Assembly (NCBI RefSeq): GCF_016887565.1
Contig: NZ_CP069396.1
Coordinates: forward strand, 3,623,001-3,687,000
Direction: 5' to 3'
From: Archangium violaceum
GTDB lineage: Bacteria; Myxococcota; Myxococcia; Myxococcales; Myxococcaceae
Length of the DNA: 64,000 bases
The notes beneath the pieces are model-generated. The model was given only the letters and a program-made list of their open reading frames with translations, searched no databases and was not told the origin of the DNA. Both the position numbers and the translations under genes were made by a program. This document shows, piece by piece, positions 16,958 to 52,182 of this stretch. How positions within the stretch are numbered: the stretch's first letter is position 1; each line of letters opens with the position of its first letter.

Positions 16958-17599
16958 TCATCGGCGGCGCGTCAGGGGGTGCTTGCCTGCCTTGGGGGGA
17001 ATCAGAACGCTGGCGAGCACGAGGTCGATCAGGGATTCCAGGCGCGCCTCGTCCGAGCTGCCCCGGTGGAGCAACTCGAAGTTGAGGACGGCGCCGAAGA
17101 GCACACCATGGATGAGGCGGGGATCGGCGTCTGGCCACAACTCCCCGCGCTCGATGGCACGCTCGTAGATGTGCATCACCTCGGCATCCTTCTCGTCTCG
17201 GAGCTCGAGCACGAGCTCTCCGACGGGATCCCCCGGCCTCGCATCGAACAGCAGCCGGAAGAACGCGCGGCGTGAGGGCTCGCGGGCATTTGCGCGCAGC
17301 GAGTGGAGCTGCACGAGGAGATCGCCCCGGAGCGTTCCGGTATCTGGCCGGGACGGTGTTTCGTCCGCGACACGCCGCACCGCGGCCCGGATGAGCTCCA
17401 GCTTCGTGGGCCAGTGCCTGTAGAGCGTGACCTTGTTCACGCCCGCTCGCGCGGCGACCTGCTCGAAGGCGAGCTTCTCGTGGCCCACACGGTCCAGCTC
17501 GCTCAACACGACTTCGAGCACCTTCTCCGTGAGGTTCTCGCCGCGAAGCTGCTTGGGCCGGGGCGGACGCGTGGATTCCCCTGTGCTTCTGCGCCTCAT
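16958..17599 (-). CDS. TetR-family transcriptional regulator
   Basis: A 213-aa repressor. The N-terminal helix-turn-helix is FEQVAARAGVNKVTLYRHWP (residues 45-64), with the usual helix 1 before it (LTEKVLEVVLSELDRVGHEK). The remaining residues form the helical ligand and dimer domain. It is transcribed divergently from a VOC-family gene. The 114-bp intergenic region holds two copies of the palindrome GCAACGSNNSCGTTGC, one near each gene, so it probably represses itself and the VOC gene in response to an unknown small molecule. Confidence 0.92.
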   Translation of the reverse strand: MRRRSTGESTRPPRPKQLRGENLTEKVLEVVLSELDRVGHEKLAFEQVAARAGVNKVTLYRHWPTKLELIRAAVRRVADETPSRPDTGTLRGDLLVQLHSLRANAREPSRRAFFRLLFDARPGDPVGELVLELRDEKDAEVMHIYERAIERGELWPDADPRLIHGVLFGAVLNFELLHRGSSDEARLESLIDLVLASVLIPPKAGKHPLTRRR

Positions 17600-17670: not shown

Positions 17671-17677
17671 GACCAAT

Positions 17678-17693
17678 GCAACGCTGGCGTTGC
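17678..17693. promoter_or_regulatory. TetR operator, copy 2
   Basis: GCAACGCTGGCGTTGC has perfect 7-bp arms around TG. It shares the core GCAACG/CGTTGC with copy 1; the centres are 47 bp apart. It ends 20 bp before the VOC start codon. Confidence 0.75.
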
Positions 17694-17713
17694 TTTCACA
17701 GGAGACAGGCGCG

Positions 17714-21885: not shown

Positions 21886-22770
21886 TCAGTGGGCGACGGT
21901 GCAGACGCCTCCCCCATTGAGGTGCGCCTGATCCACGATGCTCTGGGTGACGAACTCCTGCAGCGTCTTCACCGTGTAGGCGCCCGGCTCGTAGACGACC
22001 GGCTTGCCCTGGCCGTCCCGCAGCTCGGTTCCGTCCGGGCCCCGTAGGTCCAGCAGCTTCTGGGAGGAGAGCCCCTCGGGGGTGATGACCTTCCTCGCGT
22101 CCGCGGTGGCCGCGAAGGCGTCGAAGCGCAACTGCACCCCACGGTGCGTCCCCAGCCGGTCGTAGAACATGTGCTCGGCGTGGATGGTCACCTCCGCCTT
22201 CCCCACCGAGCCCTCCGGCACCACGATGCCCAGCGTCCCATCCACCCCGTTGACGCAGTCCACCATGCGCGCATCCACCGGGAACCCCATCCGGAAGGTG
22301 TAGACGCCCACCCCCTCCTTCACCGCCACTCCCTCCACCCAGTAGCTGTAGCCCCGCTCTCGCATCATCGCGAGATCCTCCGCGGACACGCTCCCGTCCG
22401 GCAGCTTCGTGTCTTCCCTCGGCGGGCTCACCCGGAAGCCCACCCCCCAGCGCCCCGCCGTCAGGCCCTTCAGCTCGGTGAGCGGGATGTCTCCCTTCTG
22501 CACGTCCACCAGCACGTGCTCACTCGACGCCCGCTGCTCTCCCGCGGCGGAGGTGAGCGTGAAGTCCCCCAGCGATACCAGGTACTTCGTGAACTGCACC
22601 GACCAGCCATCCTGGAAAAGGTGGCTCGGGTAGCCGCGCTGCGTGCCGTCCCCTCCACTCATCGTCACCCGCACGTCCCCCTCCGCCACGGGCTCGCATG
22701 CCGCCAACCCCAGAGCCAGTGTCACCAGCGCCGCGCGCCACGTCCGCGTTCTCCCACTTCCGATATCCAT
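21886..22770 (-). CDS. MbnP-like metal-associated lipoprotein
   Basis: A 294-aa lipoprotein from the ATG at 22770 (lipobox GLAAC, Cys25); an ATG at 22794 is in frame but lies inside the operator. The layout recalls the MbnP family of periplasmic metal-associated proteins: GWSVQFTKYLVSLGDFTL, VLVDVQKGDIPLTELKGLTAG, YSYWVEGVAV, GFPVDARMVDC, and VTIHAEHMFYDRLG. This family call is from memory of the pattern and is tentative. His-containing TIHAEHMFYD and the final CTVAH are potential metal ligands. The gene diverges from the TonB-dependent receptor with a 21-bp palindrome between them. The same fold pattern recurs in the protein encoded just after the receptor. Confidence 0.7.
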   Translation of the reverse strand: MDIGSGRTRTWRAALVTLALGLAACEPVAEGDVRVTMSGGDGTQRGYPSHLFQDGWSVQFTKYLVSLGDFTLTSAAGEQRASSEHVLVDVQKGDIPLTELKGLTAGRWGVGFRVSPPREDTKLPDGSVSAEDLAMMRERGYSYWVEGVAVKEGVGVYTFRMGFPVDARMVDCVNGVDGTLGIVVPEGSVGKAEVTIHAEHMFYDRLGTHRGVQLRFDAFAATADARKVITPEGLSSQKLLDLRGPDGTELRDGQGKPVVYEPGAYTVKTLQEFVTQSIVDQAHLNGGGVCTVAH

Positions 22771-22783
22771 GCAATCGAGAAGT

Positions 22784-22804
22784 AGATGCAACATGGTTGC
22801 GAGT
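22784..22804. promoter_or_regulatory. Metalloregulator-like operator, site 1
   Basis: AGATGCAA-CATGG-TTGCGAGT: an imperfect copy of AAATGCAA-N5-TTGCATTT, placed in the 66 bp between the MbnP-like and receptor start codons. An additional half-site ATGCAA occurs at 22769-22774. Confidence 0.6.
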
Positions 22805-22836
22805 CAAGGGGAGGGTGGTGTATCTCGCGGTCTCTC

Positions 22837-25386
22837 ATGTGGATCTCCTGTCTGGTGCTCTGCCTGCTGGGCGCCGCGGCCGATGTGCCAGTGACCCCCC
22901 CCGTGCCCCTGGAGGCGCCTCCCCCGGTGATGCCCGCGGACTCGCCTCCGCTCGCTGCCCCCGCCACGGTGCTCTTGCGTCTCACCATCGACGAGCAGGG
23001 GGAGGTGTCGCGCGTGGAGGTGCGCGAGTCGGCGGGGGTTTCGTTCGACCGGGCCGCCATGGCCGCCGCCGTTCGCTGGCGGTTTCAGCCCGCTCGGCGC
23101 GGGGAGGTGAGCCTGGAGGTCCAGGCCGATGTGCCCGTGACTTTTGCGCCTCCTGCTCCGGGGGACACGGTGCCGCCCGGGGAAGACCCTCACCCCAGCC
23201 CTCTCCCAGAGGGAGAGGGGGCATCCACGGCGGGGAACACGGGGGCGGATACCCTCACCCCAGCCCTCTCCCAGAGGGAGAGGGAGGTTCCTTCTTTCGC
23301 CACCACCGTGCGCGGCCGGACCTCCGCTCCTCCTCCCGCCGCCGTCGGGGACTTCCATATTCCCGTGGGGCAACTCGCGGATGTTCCTCGCAACTCCGCC
23401 TCAGACCTCATGTTGTTGGCTCCCGGTGTGATGCTCGCCAACCACGGTGGAGAGGGGCATGCCGACACCATCTTCATCCGCGGCTTTGATGCCGGTGAGG
23501 GCAAGGACGTGGAGTTCCGTCTCAATGGTGTGCCCCTCAATGAGGTGTCTCATGCCCATGGTCATGGGTATGCGGACACCTATTTCATCATTCCGGAGTT
23601 GGTGGACTCGCTGCGCGTCACCGAGGGGCCCTATGACCCATCCCAGGGTGACTTCGGCGTGGCGGGCACCGTGGAGTACCAGCTCGGCCTGAGGCGCCGC
23701 GGCCTCACCGCGTCCGCCAGCTATGGCAGCTTCGCCTCGCGCCGGTTGTCCCTCGTCTGGGGGCCTCCCGAGTCCAATGAGGCCACCTTCGTGGGACTGC
23801 TGCTGCGCCAGGGTCATGGTTTCGGACCCAACCGCGCCTACGCCAACGCGGGCGCCATGGCTCAAGTGGAGTTCCGCGTCGGCGAGGAGACGCGGCTGCG
23901 TCTGTTCGGCGCCAGTTACGCGGCGCGCTTCTCCTCGGCGGGCGTCGTCCGTGAGACGGACGTGGTGGACGGACGCATGCCCTGCGCGGCCGACCCGGAC
24001 TCCCAGTTCTTCTGTCTCTATGACCCGAACCAGGGCGGGGCCGGACAGCGCCACCTCCTCTCCGCCGAACTGCAGTCTCGGCTGCGCCGGGGTGGTCGTT
24101 TCGTACAGCAGGGTTTCGTCGTGCTGCGGCAGATGCGCATCCGCGACGACTTCACCGGCTTCCTCAATGACCAGCCCCCCGTTGGAGAGTCGCAGCGCGG
24201 CGACAACACCGAGCAGTACTACCGGGGCACCACCATGGGCCTGCGCGGGCGCTACACGCCGGGACTCTCCTGGCTGGGGCAGCCGCAACCGCTGGAGCTG
24301 GGCTACGTGGCCCGCTTCGACGACGTCCTCACCCGTGCCCGGCGCCTGCGCGACCACGGCGGCGCGCCCTACCGCACCCTCTTCGACAACCAGGTGCGTA
24401 CCACCAACCTGGGCGCCTACGCCTCTCTCCGGCTCGCTCCGCTGTCCTGGCTCACCCTGCGGGGCGGCCTGCGCCTGGACACCTTCCTCTTCGGCGTGGA
24501 GGACCAGAACCGGCCCTCCTCGGACAGGCAGGGCGAGCGCATTCCCGAGGAGTCCGTGGAGGCCTATGGCTTCTTCGCCAGCCCCCGCGCCACCGCCGAG
24601 GTGCGGCTCTCCCCCCACCTCACCTGGCTCACCAGCGCGGGCCTGGGCGCGCGCTCCAGCGACGCGGCGGCGCTCTCCGACGCGGAGCTCGCTCCCTATG
24701 CCCGCGTGACCGCCGCGGAGACGGGTCTGGGTTGGAAGCTGGGTGGGGAAGGGCGGCCGTACTCGCTGGAAGCTCGCGGGGCCGTGTTCGCCACCCGCGT
24801 CTCCCAGGACCTCGTCTTCGACGAGACGGCCGGCCGCAACCAGCCCGTGGGCCCCTCGCAGCGGCTGGGCGCCTTCGCCACCACGCGCTTCACCCTCGAG
24901 GAGCGCTTGGACGTCCAGGCCAGCGTCGCCTGGGCCCGCGCCACGTTGCCCCTTCCTGGTGCCTCGCCGTGGAAGCCGTGGGAGGGCACCGTCATGCCCT
25001 ACATCCCCCAGCTCCTCGGCCGGCTGGATGCCTCCGTGCGCGGCGACGTCTCCATCGCCGGGCTGCCGGTGGGGTGGAACCTGGCCCTGGGACACAGCGC
25101 CATCGGACCCAAGCCGCTGCCGCTCGACCGCTACAGCGAGCCCATCTTCCTCTTCGACGTGGCCGCCCGGGCCCGGTGGAACTGGATGGAGCTCGGCGTG
25201 TCCGTGTCGAACCTGCTCGACGCGCGCTGGCACGAGGCCGAGTTCAACTACGTCTCCAACTTCCGCGGCCCGGACGCGCCGGCCTCGCTGATGGCCACCC
25301 GCCACTTCGCCGCGGGTGCCCCGCGCACCTTCCAGGGCACCCTCACCGTCTACCTGGACTTCCAACAGGAGGAGCCGCAGCCATGA
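22837..25386 (+). CDS. TonB-dependent outer-membrane receptor with N-terminal TonB_C-like domain
   Basis: An 849-aa protein starting at the ATG at 22837, which opens onto a signal peptide (MWISCLVLCLLGAAAD). Residues about 45-105 look like the C-terminal domain of TonB: LLRLTIDEQGEVSRVEV, SAGVSFDRAAMAAAVRWRFQ. Residues about 117-149 are translated from two REP-like repeats. Then come a plug domain (VPRNSASDLMLLAPGV, IFIRGFDAGEGKDVEFRLNG) with a His-rich loop SHAHGHGYADTYF (HAHGHG at 239-244), and a beta-barrel to the end (GTLTVYLDF). Such receptors import scarce ligands, driven by TonB-ExbBD. The His loop and the neighbours suggest a metal or metal complex. The next gene starts inside its stop codon (ATGA). 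Confidence 0.88.
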   Translation: MWISCLVLCLLGAAADVPVTPPVPLEAPPPVMPADSPPLAAPATVLLRLTIDEQGEVSRVEVRESAGVSFDRAAMAAAVRWRFQPARRGEVSLEVQADVPVTFAPPAPGDTVPPGEDPHPSPLPEGEGASTAGNTGADTLTPALSQREREVPSFATTVRGRTSAPPPAAVGDFHIPVGQLADVPRNSASDLMLLAPGVMLANHGGEGHADTIFIRGFDAGEGKDVEFRLNGVPLNEVSHAHGHGYADTYFIIPELVDSLRVTEGPYDPSQGDFGVAGTVEYQLGLRRRGLTASASYGSFASRRLSLVWGPPESNEATFVGLLLRQGHGFGPNRAYANAGAMAQVEFRVGEETRLRLFGASYAARFSSAGVVRETDVVDGRMPCAADPDSQFFCLYDPNQGGAGQRHLLSAELQSRLRRGGRFVQQGFVVLRQMRIRDDFTGFLNDQPPVGESQRGDNTEQYYRGTTMGLRGRYTPGLSWLGQPQPLELGYVARFDDVLTRARRLRDHGGAPYRTLFDNQVRTTNLGAYASLRLAPLSWLTLRGGLRLDTFLFGVEDQNRPSSDRQGERIPEESVEAYGFFASPRATAEVRLSPHLTWLTSAGLGARSSDAAALSDAELAPYARVTAAETGLGWKLGGEGRPYSLEARGAVFATRVSQDLVFDETAGRNQPVGPSQRLGAFATTRFTLEERLDVQASVAWARATLPLPGASPWKPWEGTVMPYIPQLLGRLDASVRGDVSIAGLPVGWNLALGHSAIGPKPLPLDRYSEPIFLFDVAARARWNWMELGVSVSNLLDARWHEAEFNYVSNFRGPDAPASLMATRHFAAGAPRTFQGTLTVYLDFQQEEPQP
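23187..23220. repeat. REP-like palindromic repeat, copy 1 (inside receptor gene)
   Basis: CCCTCACCCCAGC followed by CCCTCTCCC-AGA-GGGAGAGGG, a 9-bp hairpin. It is translated in frame as part of PHPSPLPEGEG. The same sequence recurs at 23252 and, with one change, at 33639. Confidence 0.85.
23252..23283. repeat. REP-like palindromic repeat, copy 2 (inside receptor gene)
   Basis: Same element as copy 1, 31 bp further on, but read in a different frame of the repeat (TLTPALSQRERE). Together with copy 1 it forms the linker between the TonB_C-like domain and the plug. Confidence 0.85.
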
Positions 25387-26210
25387 CTTCCCCCCTCCGC
25401 ACCACGCGCCGGGCCTTCACCTCGCTGCTCGGGGCCGCGCTGCTCGGCGGCGTCCAGGCCTGCGGGATGTCCGGCACGGGCGGCCGGAGCATCACCTTCC
25501 GCATGGGCCTGCGCACCGCTCGCGCTCCTGGCGAGACGGTCCCCGGCCGCTTCACCACCGATACCGGTTGGCGCGTGGAGCTGACGTCCGCGCGCATGGT
25601 GCTCGGCCCCATCTACCTCTTCGAGAACCCCTCGCCCCTTCAGTCGGCCGCCTCGCGCCACTGGCTTCGCCGCATGGGCGAGGTGCTCGTCCCCAGCGCG
25701 CACGCGCACGACTCCTTCTTCTCCGGTGGGCGGGTGCTGGGGGAGTGGGATCGCGAGGTGGTGTACGACCTGCTGGCGGAGGGCGGTGGGACGCGGGTGC
25801 TCGGCCGCTCACCGGGGATCGCTGGGATGGCGCGCTCCTTCTCTCTGCTGCTCCAGCCTCCCTCGCGAGCCCTGGGCGCGGAGGCGGCATCGCTCGAGGG
25901 ACGCTCGGTGCTGTTGGAAGGCACTGCCTCGCGCGAGGGGAACACCGTGGCCTTCCGGGCCGCCCTGGACTTTCCTCCGCCGGTGGAGCTGCAGCGGGTG
26001 GAGTTCGTCCCCATGGAGGTGGAGCTGGACGACGAGGGGCTCTTCATCGTGGAGCTCCAACCGCACCGCTGGTTCGAGGGCACGCTCTTCGAGCGGCTGG
26101 AGGTGCCGGCCAGCGGGGCGGCGGTGACGGTGCCCCCCGAGAGCCAGGTGCACCGCGCACTGCTCGTCAACGTGCGGCGGCACACCGCGTTCTCCGCCAC
26201 CTGGGAGTGA
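25383..26210 (+). CDS. Exported protein with His-rich loop, related to the MbnP-like lipoprotein
   Basis: A 275-aa protein coupled to the receptor by an ATGA overlap. The N-terminus MTSPLRTTRRAFTSLLGAAL has twin Arg and ends in VQAC (Cys27), so it is a lipoprotein, possibly Tat-exported. Its core parallels the MbnP-like protein at 21886-22770: GWRVELTSARMVLGPIYLFE matches GWSVQFTKYLVSLGDFTL, VLLEGTASREGNTVAFRAAL matches YWVEGVAVKEGVGVYTFRMG, and VELQPHRWFEG matches VTIHAEHMFYD. An insertion carries PSAHAHDSFFSGG, a likely metal-binding loop. Position and content suggest it hands cargo to or from the receptor. Confidence 0.7.
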   Translation: MTSPLRTTRRAFTSLLGAALLGGVQACGMSGTGGRSITFRMGLRTARAPGETVPGRFTTDTGWRVELTSARMVLGPIYLFENPSPLQSAASRHWLRRMGEVLVPSAHAHDSFFSGGRVLGEWDREVVYDLLAEGGGTRVLGRSPGIAGMARSFSLLLQPPSRALGAEAASLEGRSVLLEGTASREGNTVAFRAALDFPPPVELQRVEFVPMEVELDDEGLFIVELQPHRWFEGTLFERLEVPASGAAVTVPPESQVHRALLVNVRRHTAFSATWE

Positions 26211-26235
26211 GCGGGCCCCGGGGGAGGCGGCCCGC
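26211..26235. terminator. Hairpin between convergent genes
   Basis: GCGGGCC (26211-26217) pairs with GGCCCGC (26229-26235) across an 11-base loop, in the 33 bp between two converging genes. No T-run. Confidence 0.45.
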
Positions 26236-26243
26236 CCGTCCTC

Positions 26244-27479
26244 CTACTTCGCGTACCGCTCCAGGACGAACTCGAGCGTCGTGGCGTCGGTGGGACCGAA
26301 GTGCAGCATGTAGCTCCGGTTTCCCATCGCCGCACTGAAGCGCGCCCGGTGGGTGATGCCAGCACAGGCCGGAGGCGCGGCACGGAGCTCCACGAGAACC
26401 TCGAAGCCGTCCAGATCGTCATAGGCACCCACCTGGAGCTCCTGGCCGAGGTACAGCACGATGTCCTCGTCCTCGGCGGGCTTGGAGATGAGCTCCGTAT
26501 AGCCCTCGTGAGGGCCCTCTCCCGGGAGGGTCAGCCGGTAGCGCGTGTGGCCCACGCCCGTCGGGGGCGGGAACCCGAAGGGAGGGCGCGCGGGAGCGGC
26601 CGTGAGGGCTTCCGCCGTGCTGGCGAGGGTATGGGTGCAGGCGTGCTCGAGGTGGCCGTCGCGCTTGCCGGTCGTGAAGTCCAGCTTGCCGTCACCCAGG
26701 ACGGGGGTGGCGTCCAGTCGGTTGCCCACGGCGGCGCTCCTCAGCGCGGAGAGATCCAGCGTGTACGCGGACTCCTCCTCCAGCGGCGGTCCTCCCTCGT
26801 CGGGGGCGGAGACGCGGACGGTCAACGTGAGGCCATCGGGTGACCACTGTCCCGTCAAGGCGCGCGGCGGGAGGCTGGAGTCGGTGCGGTTCACCAGCTC
26901 CACCTGCGCGAAGGCCGGGTTCATGGCCTCGGTGAACGTCACGGTGAGCACCTTGTGGAAGTACGTGCCCGGACGGCTCGCCGAGGCGTCGTAATACATC
27001 TCCACGGGGTACAGCTCCTGGGTCCCCTCCGCCGGGCTCGCGGAGGCGACGGCCGGGCGGGGGCGATCCGAGGTGGTGCGGAAATCCAGCCGGCCATCGC
27101 CCAGGAAGGCCGTGCCGTCCAGTGCGTTGCCCGCCACGTCCCGGAAGCCCTTCAGCTCGAGGGCGTGGGCGTCGTCATGGCGGATGCTCGTGACGGGCAC
27201 CTTCAGCGTCCTGTCCGACCAGGTGGCGGTGCCGAGCGTCAGCCCTCCCGACGGCACCAGGGTGCCCGCCTCCGGGTTCATGGGCTCGCTGAAGGTGATG
27301 GACACCTCGGTGGTGGCACCCGGGAGCAGTCCCTCCGCGCTCTCGGCGGGGGAGGTGGCCGTCACGGTGGGGGCCTCGGTGTCCGCCGGGAAGGGGCGGG
27401 GAGGCGGTGGATCGTCGTTGCAGGCCGTCAGGGCCAGGGCACAGGCGGTGAGCAGGGCATTGCCAGGGAAGGAGCGCAT
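26244..27479 (-). CDS. Lipoprotein with two Ig-like (SbsA-type) domains and a C-terminal HxCxH domain
   Basis: A 411-aa lipoprotein (ATG at 27479; lipobox LTAC, Cys20). Residues about 30-135 and 140-260 are Ig-like domains of the SbsA/Big_5 kind (APTVTATSPAESAEG, VSITFSEPMNPEAG, DVAGNALDGTAF; then the second copy). The C-terminal 130 residues match three neighbouring lipoproteins: HACTH (279-283), a third His at 311 in GHTRYRLTLPG, a strand block ending IVLYLG, and YMLHFGPTDATTLEFVLER at the end. The shared His/Cys/His/His set suggests metal binding; the Ig domains would extend it from the membrane. A strong hairpin separates it from the upstream paralogue. Confidence 0.78.
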   Translation of the reverse strand: MRSFPGNALLTACALALTACNDDPPPPRPFPADTEAPTVTATSPAESAEGLLPGATTEVSITFSEPMNPEAGTLVPSGGLTLGTATWSDRTLKVPVTSIRHDDAHALELKGFRDVAGNALDGTAFLGDGRLDFRTTSDRPRPAVASASPAEGTQELYPVEMYYDASASRPGTYFHKVLTVTFTEAMNPAFAQVELVNRTDSSLPPRALTGQWSPDGLTLTVRVSAPDEGGPPLEEESAYTLDLSALRSAAVGNRLDATPVLGDGKLDFTTGKRDGHLEHACTHTLASTAEALTAAPARPPFGFPPPTGVGHTRYRLTLPGEGPHEGYTELISKPAEDEDIVLYLGQELQVGAYDDLDGFEVLVELRAAPPACAGITHRARFSAAMGNRSYMLHFGPTDATTLEFVLERYAK

Positions 27480-27507
27480 CGTTTGGAATTCCTCGCGGGA
27501 AATGGCA

Positions 27508-27538
27508 CCGGGGCGGCCTCGGAAGGAGGCCGCCCCGG
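27508..27538 (-). terminator. Strong hairpin after the 243-aa lipoprotein gene
   Basis: A perfect 13-bp stem: CCGGGGCGGCCTC (27508-27520) with GAGGCCGCCCCGG (27526-27538), loop GGAAG. It lies 33 bp after the stop of the 27572-28303 gene and 28 bp before the ATG of the next gene on the same strand. It could therefore terminate or attenuate read-through. Confidence 0.65.
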
Positions 27539-27571
27539 CTCGCGGGCACTCGCCCGCTGCTTCAGGAGTGA

Positions 27572-28303
27572 CTAGTTCGTCAGCGAGCCATTGCAGTTCT
27601 CGTCCACGCTGTTGCCGGTGATCTCCGCGGCCGAGGGGTTGATGCTGGCGTTCGCGTCGTTGCAGTCGTAGCGCTGGGTGATGTAGCCGGCCGGCGGCAC
27701 GCACGCGGTGAGGACGGAGACGCTGCTGTTGCCCCAGGCGTCAGCATCCGAGTCCTGGTAGTAGCGGACGGTGTAGTCCTCCACGCGCTCGGCGACCACG
27801 CCCACCAGGTTGCCCGACGCGGGCCCCAGCACCACCTGATACGCGGTGGTGGTGCTGCTCAGGTTGAACACGGCCACCTTCGTCAGCGCGCAGCCGCTCA
27901 CGGAGTGGGTGAGCGCGGAGCTGAGCGTATTGCCCGCGCTGTCCTTCACCGTGATGGCGGTGTTCTGCGTCAGGAAGAAGGCCCACGAGCCCGCGGTGGC
28001 CGGCTGGAACTTCACCGTTCCCGCGGCGCTGGCCGGCAGGGTCACGTCGAACTGCTTGTGCGCGGTGTTGATGCTCGGCGTCGAGGAGGTCAGGCCGCTC
28101 GTCGCCGTCACGCTCACGTGGTCCGCGCTGTTGGTCGAGTGCACGCAGGAGTGCGAGCTGATGGTGGAGCCGAGCGCCGTGCAGCCGGCCTCGAGCCCCT
28201 GCTCCTGCCACGAGGTGTCCTGCTCCTCCTCCAGGCCCGGGCCGCAGGCCGCCAGCGACAGGCCGATGAGCGCACCGCCGATGTTTCGCATCGTCATCTT
28301 CAT
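27572..28303 (-). CDS. Lipoprotein with HxCxH domain and C-terminal MopE-type motif
   Basis: A 243-aa lipoprotein (ATG at 28303, AAGGGA upstream; lipobox LAAC, Cys20). The domain shared with its neighbours is HSCVH (51-55), a third His82 in AHKQFDVTLP, GTVKFQPATAGSWAFFLT, and AYQVVLGPASGNLVGVVAE. The last about 60 residues form the putative metal-binding motif named after MopE (PF11617 type): YYQDSDADAWGN, CVPPAGYITQRYDCNDANAS, and NPSAAEITGNSVDENCNG. The acidic Asp/Asn pattern there could bind Ca or another metal. A palindromic operator lies 85 bp upstream of the start. Confidence 0.8.
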   Translation of the reverse strand: MKMTMRNIGGALIGLSLAACGPGLEEEQDTSWQEQGLEAGCTALGSTISSHSCVHSTNSADHVSVTATSGLTSSTPSINTAHKQFDVTLPASAAGTVKFQPATAGSWAFFLTQNTAITVKDSAGNTLSSALTHSVSGCALTKVAVFNLSSTTTAYQVVLGPASGNLVGVVAERVEDYTVRYYQDSDADAWGNSSVSVLTACVPPAGYITQRYDCNDANASINPSAAEITGNSVDENCNGSLTN

Positions 28304-28387
28304 GGTTTGTCCCTTTCAGGTGAACCGGGAGCGGCGCTGTGCCTCGCACGATGGCCGCGCGCTCCTCGGCATCTCCAGTGATGACGC

Positions 28388-28408
28388 ATGTGCAACTGAG
28401 TTGCAATA
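28388..28408. promoter_or_regulatory. Metalloregulator-like operator, site 2
   Basis: The core TGCAACT-G-AGTTGCA (28391-28405) is a perfect 15-bp palindrome. It matches the TGCAA-N5-TTGCA core of the other sites and lies upstream of the 28303 start. Confidence 0.65.
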
Positions 28409-28434
28409 GCTGCCTGGCTTTTCGCCGCGCTCGA

Positions 28435-29097
28435 TTACTGCAGGTGCTCGATGACCAGCCCCAGCTCGGGCAGGGGGGTGGGGCCGAACGTGACGGTGTA
28501 TTGGACCTTGTCCGTCAGCTCGTAGCCCACCATTCCCACCAGGCCGCCCTGGCAGACTCCGTCGCGGATGTCCTGGGGGATGGGCGCGGTGGCCACGGGT
28601 TGCAGGACGCTCGTCCCCTCGCGCACGGCGACGGGGACGCTGGCGTCGCTCAGGTAGAGGACGAAGTCGCCCGTGGCGTAGCCCTTGAAGTTGAAGGTGC
28701 CCACGTACTGTCCGTTCTCCGGGCGGAGCTTGACGGTGTAGTACGTGTGGAAGGCGTCCACGCGGGGCTGCCGGTCCAACGCCGCGGTCACCAGGGCGAA
28801 GGGCCCGTTGGTGACGTGCCAGCACGCGTGCTGGCCGTTGTCACCGAAGTCGAATCCATCCCGGGGGACGTAGTTCGGATCCTGCTGACATGACAGGCCC
28901 TGTGCCGCCGCCAGGTAGCCGCGATCACAGTGGCACCAGTCGCCCGTGGGCTCGCGGTGGATGTGTCCGTGGGGCGCGCACGGGTCCGTCTGCCCCTGCG
29001 GTTGCGGCGGTTCGGTCTCGGGCCCGGGGGGCTGGCCACAGGCGGCGAGTGCCACCGCACAGACGGCCCGAGCGAGGAAACGTTGGGTCGATCGCAT
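28435..29097 (-). CDS. Lipoprotein with HxCxH domain and EGF-like Cys region
   Basis: A 220-aa lipoprotein (ATG at 29097; lipobox LAAC, Cys20). Residues 40-70 have EGF-like cysteine spacing and several His (CAPHGHIHREP, then WCHCDRGYL). The shared domain follows: HACWH (90-94) with GPFALVTAAL, His117 in FHTYYTVKL, GTFNFKGYATGDFVLYLS, and VQYTVTFGPTPLPELGLVIE at the end. It is most similar to the 193-aa neighbour, with which it shares HACxH plus a GPF and LTAA/VTAA block. A matching 21-bp operator sits about 40 bp upstream. Confidence 0.78.
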   Translation of the reverse strand: MRSTQRFLARAVCAVALAACGQPPGPETEPPQPQGQTDPCAPHGHIHREPTGDWCHCDRGYLAAAQGLSCQQDPNYVPRDGFDFGDNGQHACWHVTNGPFALVTAALDRQPRVDAFHTYYTVKLRPENGQYVGTFNFKGYATGDFVLYLSDASVPVAVREGTSVLQPVATAPIPQDIRDGVCQGGLVGMVGYELTDKVQYTVTFGPTPLPELGLVIEHLQ

Positions 29098-29126
29098 GAC
29101 GGATTTCCTACATGCATGGGCGTATC

Positions 29127-29147
29127 AAATGCAACTCGGATGCATGT
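29127..29147. promoter_or_regulatory. Metalloregulator-like operator, site 3
   Basis: AAATGCAA-CTCGG-ATGCATGT: the left arm is identical to site 4 and the right arm matches 6 of 8. It lies 30-50 bp upstream of the 29097 start codon. Confidence 0.6.
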
Positions 29148-29232
29148 GTGTCGCGAAAGGAAATGGGGCGGAGGGGTCCGCGGGCGCGCCGGCCCACGGA
29201 CCCCGGCCGGGCCTTGGTGGCCCGGGGAGGGA

Positions 29233-29814
29233 CTACTCCTGGTGATCGTGGTGGGCGGCTTCCTCGACGACGAGGGTGAACTGGGCGTTGCTCTGCTTGA
29301 GCGTCTGGAACTCGAGGCGGTACTCCACGCCGGCCTCGAGGTCCGCGATGATGGCGTTGCGCAGGGCGCCGCAGACCTCCGTGGGCACCTGGAAGCGGCA
29401 CTCGAGGCCCACCTCGGTGGTGCCGTTGAAGATGCGCAGGCCGGGGTAGCGCGACAGCAGGAAGGCGAACTCGCCGGACTCCTCCGGGATGAAGTTGACC
29501 GAGCCGCCCCAGCCGCAGCTGGAGCTGTTCGCCGGCAGGGTGATGACGTAGCCGGTGTGCGGCAGGTTGACGTCCACGAAGGGAACCGTTCCCAGCGCGG
29601 CGGCCGTCAGGTTCTGGAAGGGTCCGAGCTCCGCGTGGATGCACGCGTGCTCGACCACCTCCGTGAGCTCCTCCGTCTCGGTGCAGGCGGCCAGCAGGCC
29701 GCTCTGCTGCGTCTCCAGCTCGCCGCGCGTGGGCTCCGCCTCCGTGCCACCGCAGGCGGCGAGCAGCAGGGACACGCCTGCCAGGAGCAGGCTCTTCTTG
29801 AACGGGTTCTTCAT
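29233..29814 (-). CDS. Lipoprotein with HxCxH domain and His-rich C-terminus
   Basis: A 193-aa lipoprotein (ATG at 29814; lipobox LAAC, Cys21) and the simplest member of the four-paralogue set. It has HACIH (56-60), GPFQNLTAAAL, His86 in LPHTGYVITLP, GSVNFIPEESGEFAFLLS, and EYRLEFQTLKQSNAQFTLVV. The tail reads EEAAHHDHQE, adding three more His. Two further Cys pairs could form disulfides. No family recognised. Its operator, the most symmetric of the four, is 64 bp upstream of the start codon. Confidence 0.78.
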   Translation of the reverse strand: MKNPFKKSLLLAGVSLLLAACGGTEAEPTRGELETQQSGLLAACTETEELTEVVEHACIHAELGPFQNLTAAALGTVPFVDVNLPHTGYVITLPANSSSCGWGGSVNFIPEESGEFAFLLSRYPGLRIFNGTTEVGLECRFQVPTEVCGALRNAIIADLEAGVEYRLEFQTLKQSNAQFTLVVEEAAHHDHQE

Positions 29815-29877
29815 GGTGCGACTCCTCGGTTGAGGGGGGAACTGCCTGGTGCGAACGGAAATGTGCCACGTGGATTC

Positions 29878-29898
29878 AAATGCAATCAAGTTGCATTT
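29878..29898. promoter_or_regulatory. Metalloregulator-like operator, site 4 (best copy)
   Basis: AAATGCAA-TCAAG-TTGCATTT has perfect 8-bp arms and an odd 5-bp centre, 21 bp in all. Length and odd symmetry are those of Fur/Zur-family boxes. The outer AAATG-N11-CATTT is the same as in enterobacterial Zur boxes, though the inner bases differ. Confidence 0.7.
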
Positions 29899-48542: not shown

Positions 48543-50840
48543 TCAGCGGGTCGCGCAGTATCCGAAACTGGTGCTGGCGCCCGCGCCCAGCTGCCCGTTC
48601 CAGTCCTGGCCCACGAAGGTGGTCTGGTTTCCGGAGGGCGTGGCCGTGGCGTTCCACACGTGCGTGAGGTTGCCTCCCACGCTCATCGTGGCCCGCCAGG
48701 TGATCGTGTCCGAACCGGGGTTGGTCACCTTGACGTTGGTGCAGTAGCCGCTCCCCCAGTCATCCATGGGGACCATGGTCACCTTCACGTTGCCAGAGGC
48801 CGCCGGGTCGGTCGTGCCACCACCGCCGCCGCCATTGCCCGGGGTGCCGCCACCTCCCGGCTTCGTCCCCGGCTCCGCCAGGCGCTCGGTGAAGCGCGGC
48901 AGCTGCGTCAGCGAGACGAGCAGCTCCGGAATGCTCTGCCCCCCCTCGCGGAAGCGCTCGGTGAGCTGACGGGCCACGCAGGACTCGTCATCCCCAGAGC
49001 TGCCGTAGGCGAAGCGCAGCCACTGCATCGAGAAGCAGGACTGCACGTCCGCGCTGGCGCCCAGCTTCTGTTGCAGCTCCTCCACGCCGTTGAAGGTGCC
49101 GTCGGTGTCGGGCGTGGGCGCGGACCACACCGCGCCCGTCGCATCCACCGGGGTCTGCCCGTCCGGCAGCTTCGGCTGGTAGCGGCCGACACTGTCGAAC
49201 TGTTCGAAGCCGAAGCCGATGGGGTCCATCAGCTTGTGGCACGAGGCACAGGCCGCGTTGGTCGAGTGCTCCTGGAAGCGCTGGCGGTTGGTCGACTCGG
49301 GGTCCACCGGGGACAGCTGCACGTTGAGGCCCGGGGGAGGCGGCGGGAGCGGCTGGCACAGCATGCGCTCACGCACCAGCTTTCCGCGCAGCACGGGCGA
49401 GGACGTCTGCGGCGTGGCATGGCTGGCCAGGATGCTCCCATGGGTGAGGATGCCCTTGCGGCCCGTGCCGGACAGGTCCCACATGCGCAGGCCGGTGGCG
49501 GTGGTCGCCGAGGAGCTCACCTGTCCCGACAGGCCGTAGAAGGACACCAGCGTGTCCGTGGCGAACGTGTAGTCGGCCGTGAAGAGCTCGGGCAGCCGAC
49601 CGGAGCCCCTGCGGACGACATGGTCGAAGAGCTCCGTCGTCTCGGTCTTCATCGCCGTGCGGATGTCGGAGGTGAAGCTCTCGAAGGCCACGGCGTCCTT
49701 CTGCGCCTGGTCGAGCTTGCCCAGGTCCAGCCACTGGCTCACGAAGTGGTCGAGCATGAGGCGGCTCCGGGGCGACGCCAGCATGCGGCGCGCCTCGGCG
49801 GAGATCTGCTCCGGCGTGTGCAGGGTCCCCGCGCGCGCCTTGGCCAGCAGCGTCTCGTCCGGCATCGAGCCCCAATAGAGGTACGACAGCTCCGAGGCCA
49901 CCTCGTAGTCCGTCAGCACGTACCGCCCGCTGCTGGTGTACTGCCCCAGCTCCGAGCGGTAGAGGAAGTGGGGGGACTGGAGCATGGCGGCGATGACGGC
50001 CTCGATGCCCTCGGTGTAGCCGTCCTCCGATGCCACGCTCGTGTAGAGCGACTGGTAGCGGCTGCGCTCCCCGTCCGTCAGCGGGCGGCGGAAGGCGCGC
50101 TCGCCGAACTTCTGGATGAACTGCTGCGCGCACGTCTCTCCCGGCTCGCAGGTGACGTGCTGGGCCAGGTTGGCCACGGCCGCCTCGGCGGCCTGCTCGG
50201 AGGTGCTGAGCAGCTTGTCCGTCAGCAGCGTGCCCACCGCGCGCGCGTCCGAGTTGTTGTCGAAGCCGTGCACGACTTCTTCCGCGGGCAGGGACTCTCC
50301 CCACTGGGAGTCCAGGTAGAGCAGGTCGCGCAGGGTGTTGTCGTACTCGAAGCGGGTGAGCATGCGCAGCCGGCGCCGGGCCGCGGGATCGATGGCGCCC
50401 GGGGTGCACGCCACCACGGCGGTGGCCTCGCAGGCCCCGGCGACACCGTTGATGCGGTCCGCGAAGGCCTGGAGGTCCGTGTAGCGGTTGGTGCCCTGGG
50501 CCACGAGCGTGCCGCCGCCGTGGCCCTTCGGGTGAGTGCCCGAGGGCTTCATCACCAGCAGGGGCGCGCCCGCGCTCGTGTCACGCGCCAGCCCCCGCAC
50601 CGTCATGAAGTTGGCCTCCACCGCGCCCTCCTCGTTGGGGGGCAGCAGCACCAGGCGCGTCCCGGCCGCCAGTCCGTCGGACTTGTGGCAGGCGATGCAC
50701 TGCGTGGACAGCACCGGCTCCCAGAGCTTGGTGCGGAAGAACTCCAGGTCGTCGGGGCAGCCGTCCTGCTTGGTGCAGGCGGAGAGGGAAGCGGAGAGAA
50801 GAAGAGCGCCAAGGGCAGAGAGGTGCCGGGACGTGAGCAC
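48543..50840 (-). CDS. DUF1592-type (planctomycete cytochrome C-like) lipoprotein with C-terminal CBM2
   Basis: A 765-aa protein starting at GTG 50840 with AGGAGG upstream, opening onto a lipoprotein signal (lipobox LSAC, Cys22). Domains in order: a CxxCH segment (CIACH, 48-52), DUF1587 (RRLRMLTRFEYDNTLRDLL), DUF1595 (AFRRPLTDGERSRYQSLY), DUF1592 (SPHFLYRSELG and LTDYEVASELSYLYWGSMPD), DUF1588 (GRKGILTHGSILASHA, then CASCHKLMDP), and DUF1585 (SFSMQWLRFAYG-like). A Gly/Pro linker leads to a carbohydrate-binding module of the CBM2 type (WGSGYCTNVKVTNPG, LTHVWNATA, GASTSFGYCA). The two CxxCH sites suggest haem. It is followed by the DUF1552 partner's operon. Confidence 0.86.
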   Translation of the reverse strand: MLTSRHLSALGALLLSASLSACTKQDGCPDDLEFFRTKLWEPVLSTQCIACHKSDGLAAGTRLVLLPPNEEGAVEANFMTVRGLARDTSAGAPLLVMKPSGTHPKGHGGGTLVAQGTNRYTDLQAFADRINGVAGACEATAVVACTPGAIDPAARRRLRMLTRFEYDNTLRDLLYLDSQWGESLPAEEVVHGFDNNSDARAVGTLLTDKLLSTSEQAAEAAVANLAQHVTCEPGETCAQQFIQKFGERAFRRPLTDGERSRYQSLYTSVASEDGYTEGIEAVIAAMLQSPHFLYRSELGQYTSSGRYVLTDYEVASELSYLYWGSMPDETLLAKARAGTLHTPEQISAEARRMLASPRSRLMLDHFVSQWLDLGKLDQAQKDAVAFESFTSDIRTAMKTETTELFDHVVRRGSGRLPELFTADYTFATDTLVSFYGLSGQVSSSATTATGLRMWDLSGTGRKGILTHGSILASHATPQTSSPVLRGKLVRERMLCQPLPPPPPGLNVQLSPVDPESTNRQRFQEHSTNAACASCHKLMDPIGFGFEQFDSVGRYQPKLPDGQTPVDATGAVWSAPTPDTDGTFNGVEELQQKLGASADVQSCFSMQWLRFAYGSSGDDESCVARQLTERFREGGQSIPELLVSLTQLPRFTERLAEPGTKPGGGGTPGNGGGGGGTTDPAASGNVKVTMVPMDDWGSGYCTNVKVTNPGSDTITWRATMSVGGNLTHVWNATATPSGNQTTFVGQDWNGQLGAGASTSFGYCATR

Positions 50841-50889
50841 GGGGCCTGCCTCCTCATCGTGAAGGTGGACGGTCAGGTGGGGGGCGGGG

Positions 50890-52182
50890 TCAGACGAGCC
50901 CGGAGAGCGGGCCACTGGCCTTGGTGACGTCGCCGAAGGTGTCGATGGTGACACCCAGGGCATGGCAGACCGAGGTGAGCAGCTTCTGGTGCGGTGCTCC
51001 GCTGAAACGCAGGTAGCGCCCGAAGCGGAAGTAGCTGTTGGAGCCCCCGGCCAGGACGAAGGGCACGGAGCGGCAGGTGTGCAGACGGCTGTCGCCGAGC
51101 TCCTTGGCCCAGAGCACCAGGGTGGAGTCGAGCAGGGTGCCGCCCGTCTCCAGGTCCGGGTGGGCCTGGAGGGCGTCGAGCAGATAGGCGAACTGCTCGG
51201 CGAACCAGCGCTCGCACTTGACGAAGTTCGCCACCCCCGAGGTGTTGGAGTCGTCCTTGTGGGACAGCTCGTGGTGGGCCTCGCCCATCCCCATCCAGTT
51301 GAACACCTGGGGGGCGATGGTGTGGGCCCACTGGAGGGAGGCCACGCGCGTCATGCCGCAGCCCAGCGCGCTCACCATCAAATCGATCTGGGCCTTGCCC
51401 ACCGCGGGGAAGTTCCCGTTGGCCATGGCGTCGATGGGGGCCGGAGCGGTGGCCGAGGGGCACCCGGGCAGCGCCACGGGCTCGGTCAGCCCGCGCTCCG
51501 TCTGGCGCAGCGCCTCGAGGTGTTGATCGAGCTTCTGCTTCTCCTGCGCGCCCACGCGCTGGGACAGGTCGTTCATCTCACCGCGCACCAGGTCCAGGAT
51601 GCTCTTGCGGCGGCGCAGCAGCTTGTCGGTGGTGGTCGTGTTACCGCCGAGCGCGCCGAAGAGGCGCTGGAAGGCGTTGCGCGGACTGTCCTCGGGCGAG
51701 GCGAAGACGCCGGGGGCCGAGTACGACATGCGCGTGGAGCGCGCCGCACCCCAGGCGCTCGTCTGCACGCCGAACTCCAGGGACTGGAAGCGCGAGCCCT
51801 GGCCGATCTTGCTCGCGACGTACTGGTCGACGGAGAGACCTCCGGAGGGACTGCCCGCCGTGCCGCCGCCGGTGAGCATGTTGGACATGCCCGCCTCGTG
51901 GTTGTCCACCTCCACGAAGTCGATGCCCTCGCAGATGAGCAGCTTGGACTGGTGGCGCGCGAGCGGCTCCAGGATGCTGCCCGCGGGGAAGGAGAACTCC
52001 GTCTCCGTTCCGCTGGGGCGCCAGTGGTTGTGCACCGTCCCATTGGGCGAGAAGAAGACGATGAGCCGCTTTGCCTGCTGAGCCGCGGCACGGGCTTCTC
52101 CGCTGAGTAGCCCCAACAGCGGGCTGGCCAGGAGCGAGGCTCCCAGGCCCGCGGTGAACTGTCTTCGCCCGATCCGAATCAT
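50890..52182 (-). CDS. DUF1552 family secreted protein (Tat substrate)
   Basis: A 430-aa protein from the ATG at 52182 with a twin-arginine signal (GRRQFTAGLGASLLASPLLG, cleavage near ARA-A). The body follows the DUF1552 pattern: KRLIVFFSPNGTVHNHWRP, ICEGIDFVEVDNHEAGMSNM, TGGGTAGSPSGGLSVDQYVA, SMEFGVQ-like RFQSLEFGVQTS, and an alkaline-phosphatase-like end (STLVLWAKELGDSRLHTCRS). DUF1552 genes are regularly paired with DUF1592 genes in planctomycetes and myxobacteria; function unknown. It is the first gene of the pair. Confidence 0.9.
   Translation of the reverse strand: MIRIGRRQFTAGLGASLLASPLLGLLSGEARAAAQQAKRLIVFFSPNGTVHNHWRPSGTETEFSFPAGSILEPLARHQSKLLICEGIDFVEVDNHEAGMSNMLTGGGTAGSPSGGLSVDQYVASKIGQGSRFQSLEFGVQTSAWGAARSTRMSYSAPGVFASPEDSPRNAFQRLFGALGGNTTTTDKLLRRRKSILDLVRGEMNDLSQRVGAQEKQKLDQHLEALRQTERGLTEPVALPGCPSATAPAPIDAMANGNFPAVGKAQIDLMVSALGCGMTRVASLQWAHTIAPQVFNWMGMGEAHHELSHKDDSNTSGVANFVKCERWFAEQFAYLLDALQAHPDLETGGTLLDSTLVLWAKELGDSRLHTCRSVPFVLAGGSNSYFRFGRYLRFSGAPHQKLLTSVCHALGVTIDTFGDVTKASGPLSGLV

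Follow-up and report, generated by a model that had tools for sequence, protein, structure and literature searches.

The 64-kb window (the whole stretch of DNA that was analyzed) contains 52 called genes, the gene starts being those of a codon-bias gene caller. An earlier note on this DNA had described seven exported genes within 8 kb, designated here A to G. These were all recovered at the positions given there, save that the start of A, formerly put at 22794, is more likely at 22770. The genes and the palindromes that accompany them are as follows.

21886-22770, minus strand: A, lipoprotein with a modeled MbnP-like fold, 294 aa, lipobox LAAC
22787-22801, no strand assigned: palindrome in the A/B gap, Zur-box-like, 1 mismatch to TGCAAYNNNRTTGCA
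22837-25386, plus strand: B, TonB-dependent outer-membrane receptor with an N-terminal TonB_C domain and a HAHGHG plug loop
25383-26210, plus strand: C, probable Tat lipoprotein with a SAHAHD loop, distant relative of A
26244-27479, minus strand: D, lipoprotein with Big_5 repeats followed by a C-terminal HxCxH domain
27572-28303, minus strand: E, lipoprotein with an HxCxH domain and a MopE-type motif
28391-28405, no strand assigned: palindrome upstream of E-D, Zur-box-like, 0 mismatches to TGCAAYNNNRTTGCA
28435-29097, minus strand: F, lipoprotein with an HxCxH domain and a second motif, GHIHRExxGDWCHC
29130-29144, no strand assigned: palindrome upstream of F, Zur-box-like, 1 mismatch to TGCAAYNNNRTTGCA
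29233-29814, minus strand: G, lipoprotein with an HxCxH domain and a His-rich tail ending in HHDHQE
29881-29895, no strand assigned: palindrome upstream of G, Zur-box-like, 0 mismatches to TGCAAYNNNRTTGCA

The assignment of B as a TonB receptor was confirmed by Pfam matches to the plug (PF07715, 1.3e-11) and barrel (PF00593, 1.6e-11) domains, and a further Pfam match (8e-11) identified the TonB_C domain at the N terminus. The previously recognized HAHGHG loop reads SHAHGHG, and its middle histidine, H241, is identical in 31 of 31 aligned sequences. No meaningful match to B was obtained among PDB sequences. The linker between the TonB_C domain and the plug (window about 23180-23295) contains two in-frame copies of a CCCTCTCCCAGAGGGAGAGG-type repeat. 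As 18 of the 25 matches to B in the genome cover only that stretch, it was deduced that the coding sequence of B includes a dispersed repeat here. The proposed coupling of C to B was borne out by an ATGA overlap of the two genes. The SAHAHD loop of C was confirmed, and the start of C carries a twin-arginine-like TRRAF ahead of the lipobox. Judged by sequence, most of the six lipoproteins are without a match to any named protein family.

One palindrome had been proposed to occur at four sites, and these were indeed found to front all five transcript starts (A and B-C, E-D, F, and G). The Poisson probability of four palindromes in 8 kb is about 1e-8, and an extended form of the palindrome gave three matches in the window against 0.22 expected, a number reached by none of 100 shuffles. 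The genome, a single contig of 13.2 Mb, has 37 sites within one mismatch of TGCAAYNNNRTTGCA, compared to 4 for the reversed pattern. The palindrome shares its consensus with the box ATGCAACnnnGTTGCAT, which has been predicted in two Desulfovibrio genomes to be the site of Zur at znuABC-zur (PMC545781), and the window palindromes differ from this 17-mer at 2, 2, 1, and 1 positions. The difference from the predicted Desulfovibrio regulon lies in the genes that carry the box, which are znuABC-zur there and a surface cluster here. A different inverted repeat, ATGCAACGCTGGCGTTGC, is located at window positions 17676-17700 beside a TetR-family gene (16958-17599, minus strand) and is probably the operator of that regulator.

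Elsewhere in the genome, three exact copies of the 17-mer were found, situated before the genes for a COG0523 GTPase, GTP cyclohydrolase II (ribA), and a DUF418 protein; on the other side of the COG0523 site, at 275 bp, is a divergent symporter gene. Three sites, which depart from the 17-mer at 1, 2, and 2 positions, front a DUF1826 gene, and two sites precede an S8 protease gene. The gap between a Fur-family gene (149-aa FUR protein), the candidate zur, and its divergent neighbor holds a site with 1 difference, 160 bp from zur and 50 bp from the divergent gene. The operator is therefore common to the zinc-starvation genes COG0523 and DUF1826, and the same COG0523 gene carries it in G074 and G076. 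In the literature, DUF1826 is grouped with Zur-regulated COG0523 in a figure legend (PMC2770081), and ribA is tabled for the Zur of V. cholerae (PMC6103462). The ribA-type gene (L029:6907-7491), the DUF418 gene (L030:6159-7433), and the S8 protease gene (L031:8426-9598) all carry Zur-type sites. A perfect 15-mer at 11462473 falls inside a gene. Outside the multi-site and perfect loci there were 23 sites with one mismatch, namely 10 within genes, 2 without a called start within 400 bp, and 11 within 400 bp of a start; no known zinc gene was recognized by eye behind these 11, some of which may be genuine. The genome's own znuABC (L248, 11 kb) has no site at up to 2 mismatches. This operon (L248:3450-8755, about G000:C1 8333450-8338755) includes a porin-like gene (assigned by eye), ZnuA, and a CHGGHCH lipoprotein, and its ZnuC has a very His-rich N terminus.

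Among four other near-complete genomes (1 or 2 contigs each), nine zero-mismatch sites were found, of which five were at the cluster, three before COG0523, and one unrelated, and the reversed-pattern control gave 0. The single perfect site in G103 lies between two genes with no recognized zinc link. Sites with at most one mismatch were present in only 12 of 30 zur loci. Of the 147 genomes of the class, 89 had a Zur orthologue, 83 had B (threshold 1e-60, counting paralogues), and 79 had both, a co-occurrence that is confounded by ancestry; B was present without Zur in G049, G053, G061, and G086.

Two Fur-family genes were found in the genome, the candidate Zur being encoded at G000:C1:1010089-1010535. 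The metal of this regulator is not revealed by its sequence since its nearest solved relatives are Fur proteins (3.6e-10), with the Zur protein FurB at 2e-5. These relatives would be consistent with a repressor that senses iron, manganese, or peroxide, the gene set then being an iron or mixed-metal system, and so would the resemblance of the N-terminal part of B to the myxochelin receptor MxcH (7.7e-21; 73.8 bits versus a cut-off of 925). This was considered distinctly improbable, as the other Fur-family gene is the better Fur candidate (135 bits with the FUR model versus 50 bits for the candidate Zur), the box corresponds to the published predicted Zur consensus and is unlike the Fur consensus (PMC545781), and zinc-linked genes are among those apparently co-regulated.

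Orthologues of B with at least 72% identity were present in 54 of the 147 class genomes, our own included, and G-like proteins (at 1e-5) in 65. From the 54 genomes, 20 regions were compared and 19 were judged, L136 being excluded (contig edge, A missing); G094 and G104 were left out, their B and G being more than 20 kb apart. A to F are kept in one order in all 19 complete loci, and G adjoins F in 18. In the remaining locus, L125, G is absent beside F and is found on another contig of that genome. The gene set is conserved in myxobacteria and linked in these loci, and the scattering that the earlier note had named as evidence against the system was not observed. The C-D interval often holds unrelated genes in the relatives, and F was called short in L118, L120, L126, and L129 by the codon-bias caller. 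An eighth gene, H, is added in 16 of the 19 loci; the relative of H in our own genome adjoins DUF1826 and its three sites. The A-B box was found in every one of the 19 loci at up to 1 mismatch, compared to 0.04 expected from first-order Markov resampling, while a distal box, no more than 400 bp from the last gene on the lipoprotein side, was found in 15 at up to 1 mismatch and in all 19 at up to 2. The A-B box was also present in 23 of 23 loci from named relatives (A at least 70%, B in view), which probably include many of the same species. The orthologous cluster is present in a named strain of Myxococcus xanthus (L172). The myxobacterial cluster is also found complete in BNCN01000005.1 (L168), a sequence titled Comamonas sp. 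KCTC 72670 that seems to be either mislabeled or part of a mixed assembly.

Genes with zinc links adjoin the cluster in several relatives. The Fur-family gene taken as zur heads the cluster in G074, adjoining H, and is no more than 4 kb from G in G072 and G073. COG0523 and DUF1826 genes occur near B-C-A in L137 and L144. In two distant relatives (L137 and L185), an AztD-like gene adjoins A or is one gene off. The NCBIfam matches of these proteins (9e-53 and 2e-52) scored 179 and 178 bits, below the curated cut-off of 400, and the L137 protein matched solved AztD (6cmk) at 6.1e-29. AztD was not found in our own genome. In L140, the gene for an HxCxH lipoprotein has that for ZnuA (PF01297, 6e-49) on one side and those for an ABC ATPase and an ABC-3 permease on the other, all in a run on the same strand. 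The earlier suggestion that a Zur-like operator favors zinc is therefore supported by the consensus, by the COG0523 and DUF1826 sites, and by the zinc-gene neighbors in relatives. Together with the conservation of the A-B box, these findings make zinc very probably the metal of the cluster.

The grouping of D to G as four lipoproteins with a common His/Cys motif, one of them (E) of MopE type and another (G) with a His-rich tail, was upheld. The HxCxH motif occurs in 5 of the 52 called window genes, four of these being D to G. It was absent from all 252 other genes called in the genome, and it is kept in 23 of 23 homologues. The Pfam matches were to Big_5 for D (2.8e-11) and to the MopE-type PF11617 for E (E value 1e-10), while no meaningful match in Pfam or the PDB was obtained for 30 HxCxH members of the F and G types. 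In an alignment of 23 rows from six loci (F of L129 left out), where the D to F rows share 19 to 29% identity with window G, the invariant residues were the lipobox C21, H56, C58, H60, H86, G104, C148, and E184. It is likely from this pattern that H56, H60, H86, and E184 constitute a candidate His3-Glu metal site and that C58 and C148 form a candidate disulfide. H56 is sometimes lost in more distant relatives (L137, L138, and L153 to L156). Box-free F/G relatives of GCEH or GCAH type with His-rich tails were observed at L153:6671-7153 and in L154 to L156.

The AF2 model of G has a mean pLDDT of at least 90 per ten residues from 41 to 180. Its core is a beta-sandwich, the closest structure being the collagen-binding domain of ColG (5iku; Z 9.9, rmsd 2.6, 106 aligned), to which there is no sequence match. 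A relationship of G to PliG, which is listed in the E. coli Zur regulon, was considered and rejected as too weak (Z 6.2). With collagen-binding and PPC beta-sandwiches as the nearest structures, D to G could be adhesins or have a structural role, membership of the regulon being their only link to the system. We regard this as improbable given that the invariants of D to G are mainly His, Cys, and Glu, which is the pattern of a metal site.

A and C are, by sequence comparison, distant relatives of each other (hhalign 94.8%, E value 5.4e-8). For the AF2 model of A (pLDDT 91.9), the best PDB match was MbnP (7l6g; Z 10.2, rmsd 3.8, 193 aligned), the next entry having a Z of 7.1; Foldseek gave a TM score of only about 0.3. 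The "MbnP-like" label applied earlier to A and C was deduced from the match of the A model to be genuine as a fold for A; it did not hold for family membership of either protein. No meaningful match was found for A in Pfam or NCBIfam (22 members each) or among PDB sequences, and neither PF20243 nor TIGR04052 matched any of the 22 members at E values up to 1. Likewise, no meaningful match for C was obtained in Pfam (21 members), in NCBIfam (searched with the window protein), or in the PDB, and WxW was found in neither protein. Membership of the MbnP family by sequence was rejected; hhalign comparison with the genome's true MbnP gave a probability of 29.6% for A and 1.1% for C. This true MbnP is encoded elsewhere, at 3978779 (PF20243, 2.8e-36), with a CxxCH-bearing partner of di-heme type. 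The MbnP gene and its MauG/MbnH-like partner occupy L249:3615-5616 (about G000:C1 3977615-3979616), and no TonB receptor was evident among the neighboring starts. The window yielded no MbnH-like gene; the sole CxxCH gene among its 52 (48543-50915) is of DUF1592 type.

These data bear on copper, which had been put forward beside zinc and is not supported here. A copper system, with copper bound by the MbnP-fold proteins A and C and by the MopE-motif protein and taken in through the receptor, would be in keeping with the MbnP match of the A model, with PF11617 in E, and with the MerC-domain gene (PF03203, 1e-24) that lies 2.8 kb from the GCEH-type relative of G in L153. MbnP pairs often adjoin a TonB transporter (PMC3621798), and the copper site of MopE consists of two His and a kynurenine (PMC3423442). 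However, A and C fall outside PF20243 and TIGR04052, the true MbnP and its partner are elsewhere, and the operator together with the COG0523, DUF1826, AztD, and ZnuABC links favors zinc. Furthermore, the MopE stretch of E is shortened in three of six aligned loci (L124, L129, and L131) while HxCxH stays. A copper system was accordingly judged very improbable, and the context of A and C is one of zinc. A second, box-free B-C-A triplet (L146 to L148), with B 35 to 36% identical, is seen in many Myxococcota loci. It appears to be a paralogous uptake module, and the B-C-A triplet is thus not tied to zinc alone.

It is considered likely that the cluster is a zinc-starvation-induced outer-membrane zinc-uptake system, Zur-repressed and TonB-dependent, with new accessory families. 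We infer that its expression responds to metal. When zinc is ample, the Zn-loaded Fur-family repressor (Zur) would bind the four palindromes and silence the cluster, and a drop in zinc would derepress all five transcripts. D to G, presumably exposed at the surface, would bind Zn2+ (candidate residues H56, H60, H86, and E184, with the C58-C148 disulfide) and concentrate it at the outer membrane. They would then pass zinc to B, either directly or via A and C (MbnP-type, the fold being modeled for A), whereupon the His plug loop of B would admit it, with onward transport by ZnuABC. The initial proposal had been uptake or storage of zinc or copper; uptake is favored over storage, given that a receptor is at the center of the cluster and that the operator is common to zinc-starvation genes, and copper was not retained as the metal.

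Within the same regulon, D to G might instead be periplasmic or outer-membrane zinc buffers or chaperones that shield other proteins or supply them with zinc during starvation, rather than feeders of the receptor. In four genomes (G101, G110, G112, and G113), D, E, and G are retained at that locus and A, B, C, and F are missing from it, which suggests that some of these lipoproteins can act alone, and the HxCxH lipoprotein among the zinc ABC-transporter genes of L140 has no receptor beside it. Against this, D to F are linked to A-B-C in 19 of 19 complete loci, and F is the immediate neighbor of B in L137, L138, and L309, being the HxCxH member beside B in other Myxococcota. In L309, from another family of the phylum, F-B-C is accompanied by A and another HxCxH protein. 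A buffer or chaperone role was therefore thought rather unlikely, and uptake with D to G feeding the receptor is the preferred interpretation. Possible, though short of probable, is the broader proposal that the HxCxH lipoproteins are a new extracytoplasmic zinc-binding family (a disulfide-locked His3-Glu site on a collagen-binding-domain-like beta-sandwich) forming a myxobacterial surface zinc net and, at the same time, that the MbnP fold serves TonB receptors generally as a partner in metal hand-off, for zinc here and for copper in methanotrophs.

To our knowledge, the crossing of the outer membrane by zinc is little understood outside pathogens. Zur-controlled TonB-dependent receptors are already known (PMC6103462; PMC4176598), the zinc receptors including ZnuD, Caulobacter znuK, L, and M, and P. 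aeruginosa znuD and zrmA (PMC6103462). The present system resembles the ZnuD type in having an outer-membrane receptor for zinc scarcity, apparently under Zur control, with COG0523 in the regulon (PMC6103462). It differs in the N-terminal TonB_C domain of B, in the six lipoproteins, most of no named family, and in a znuABC at which no box was found. The nearest exported zinc protein in concept is ZepA of Anabaena (PMC10957091), which is likewise a Zur-controlled exported zinc-handling protein and whose domain A is also a beta-sandwich. However, ZepA has PEP-CTERM and H-X2-9-H-F/Y-H, neither of which was found in A to G by regular expressions, whereas D to G are HxCxH lipoproteins. With AztABCD, the likeness lies in the AztD-like gene close to A in L137 and L185 and in the HxCxH lipoprotein among Azt/Znu-type genes in L140; the difference is that our own genome has no AztD that could be found. 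No description of a myxobacterial Zur regulon, or of Zur-linked surface lipoproteins with a TonB receptor, was found among the open-licence papers surveyed.

The cluster seems to represent a means of zinc acquisition that has not been described. If this is true, A, C, and the HxCxH lipoproteins, three families without a named model, would gain a function, and the MbnP fold would be separated from copper. Furthermore, a many-part zinc-capturing surface of predatory bacteria would become testable in Myxococcus xanthus.
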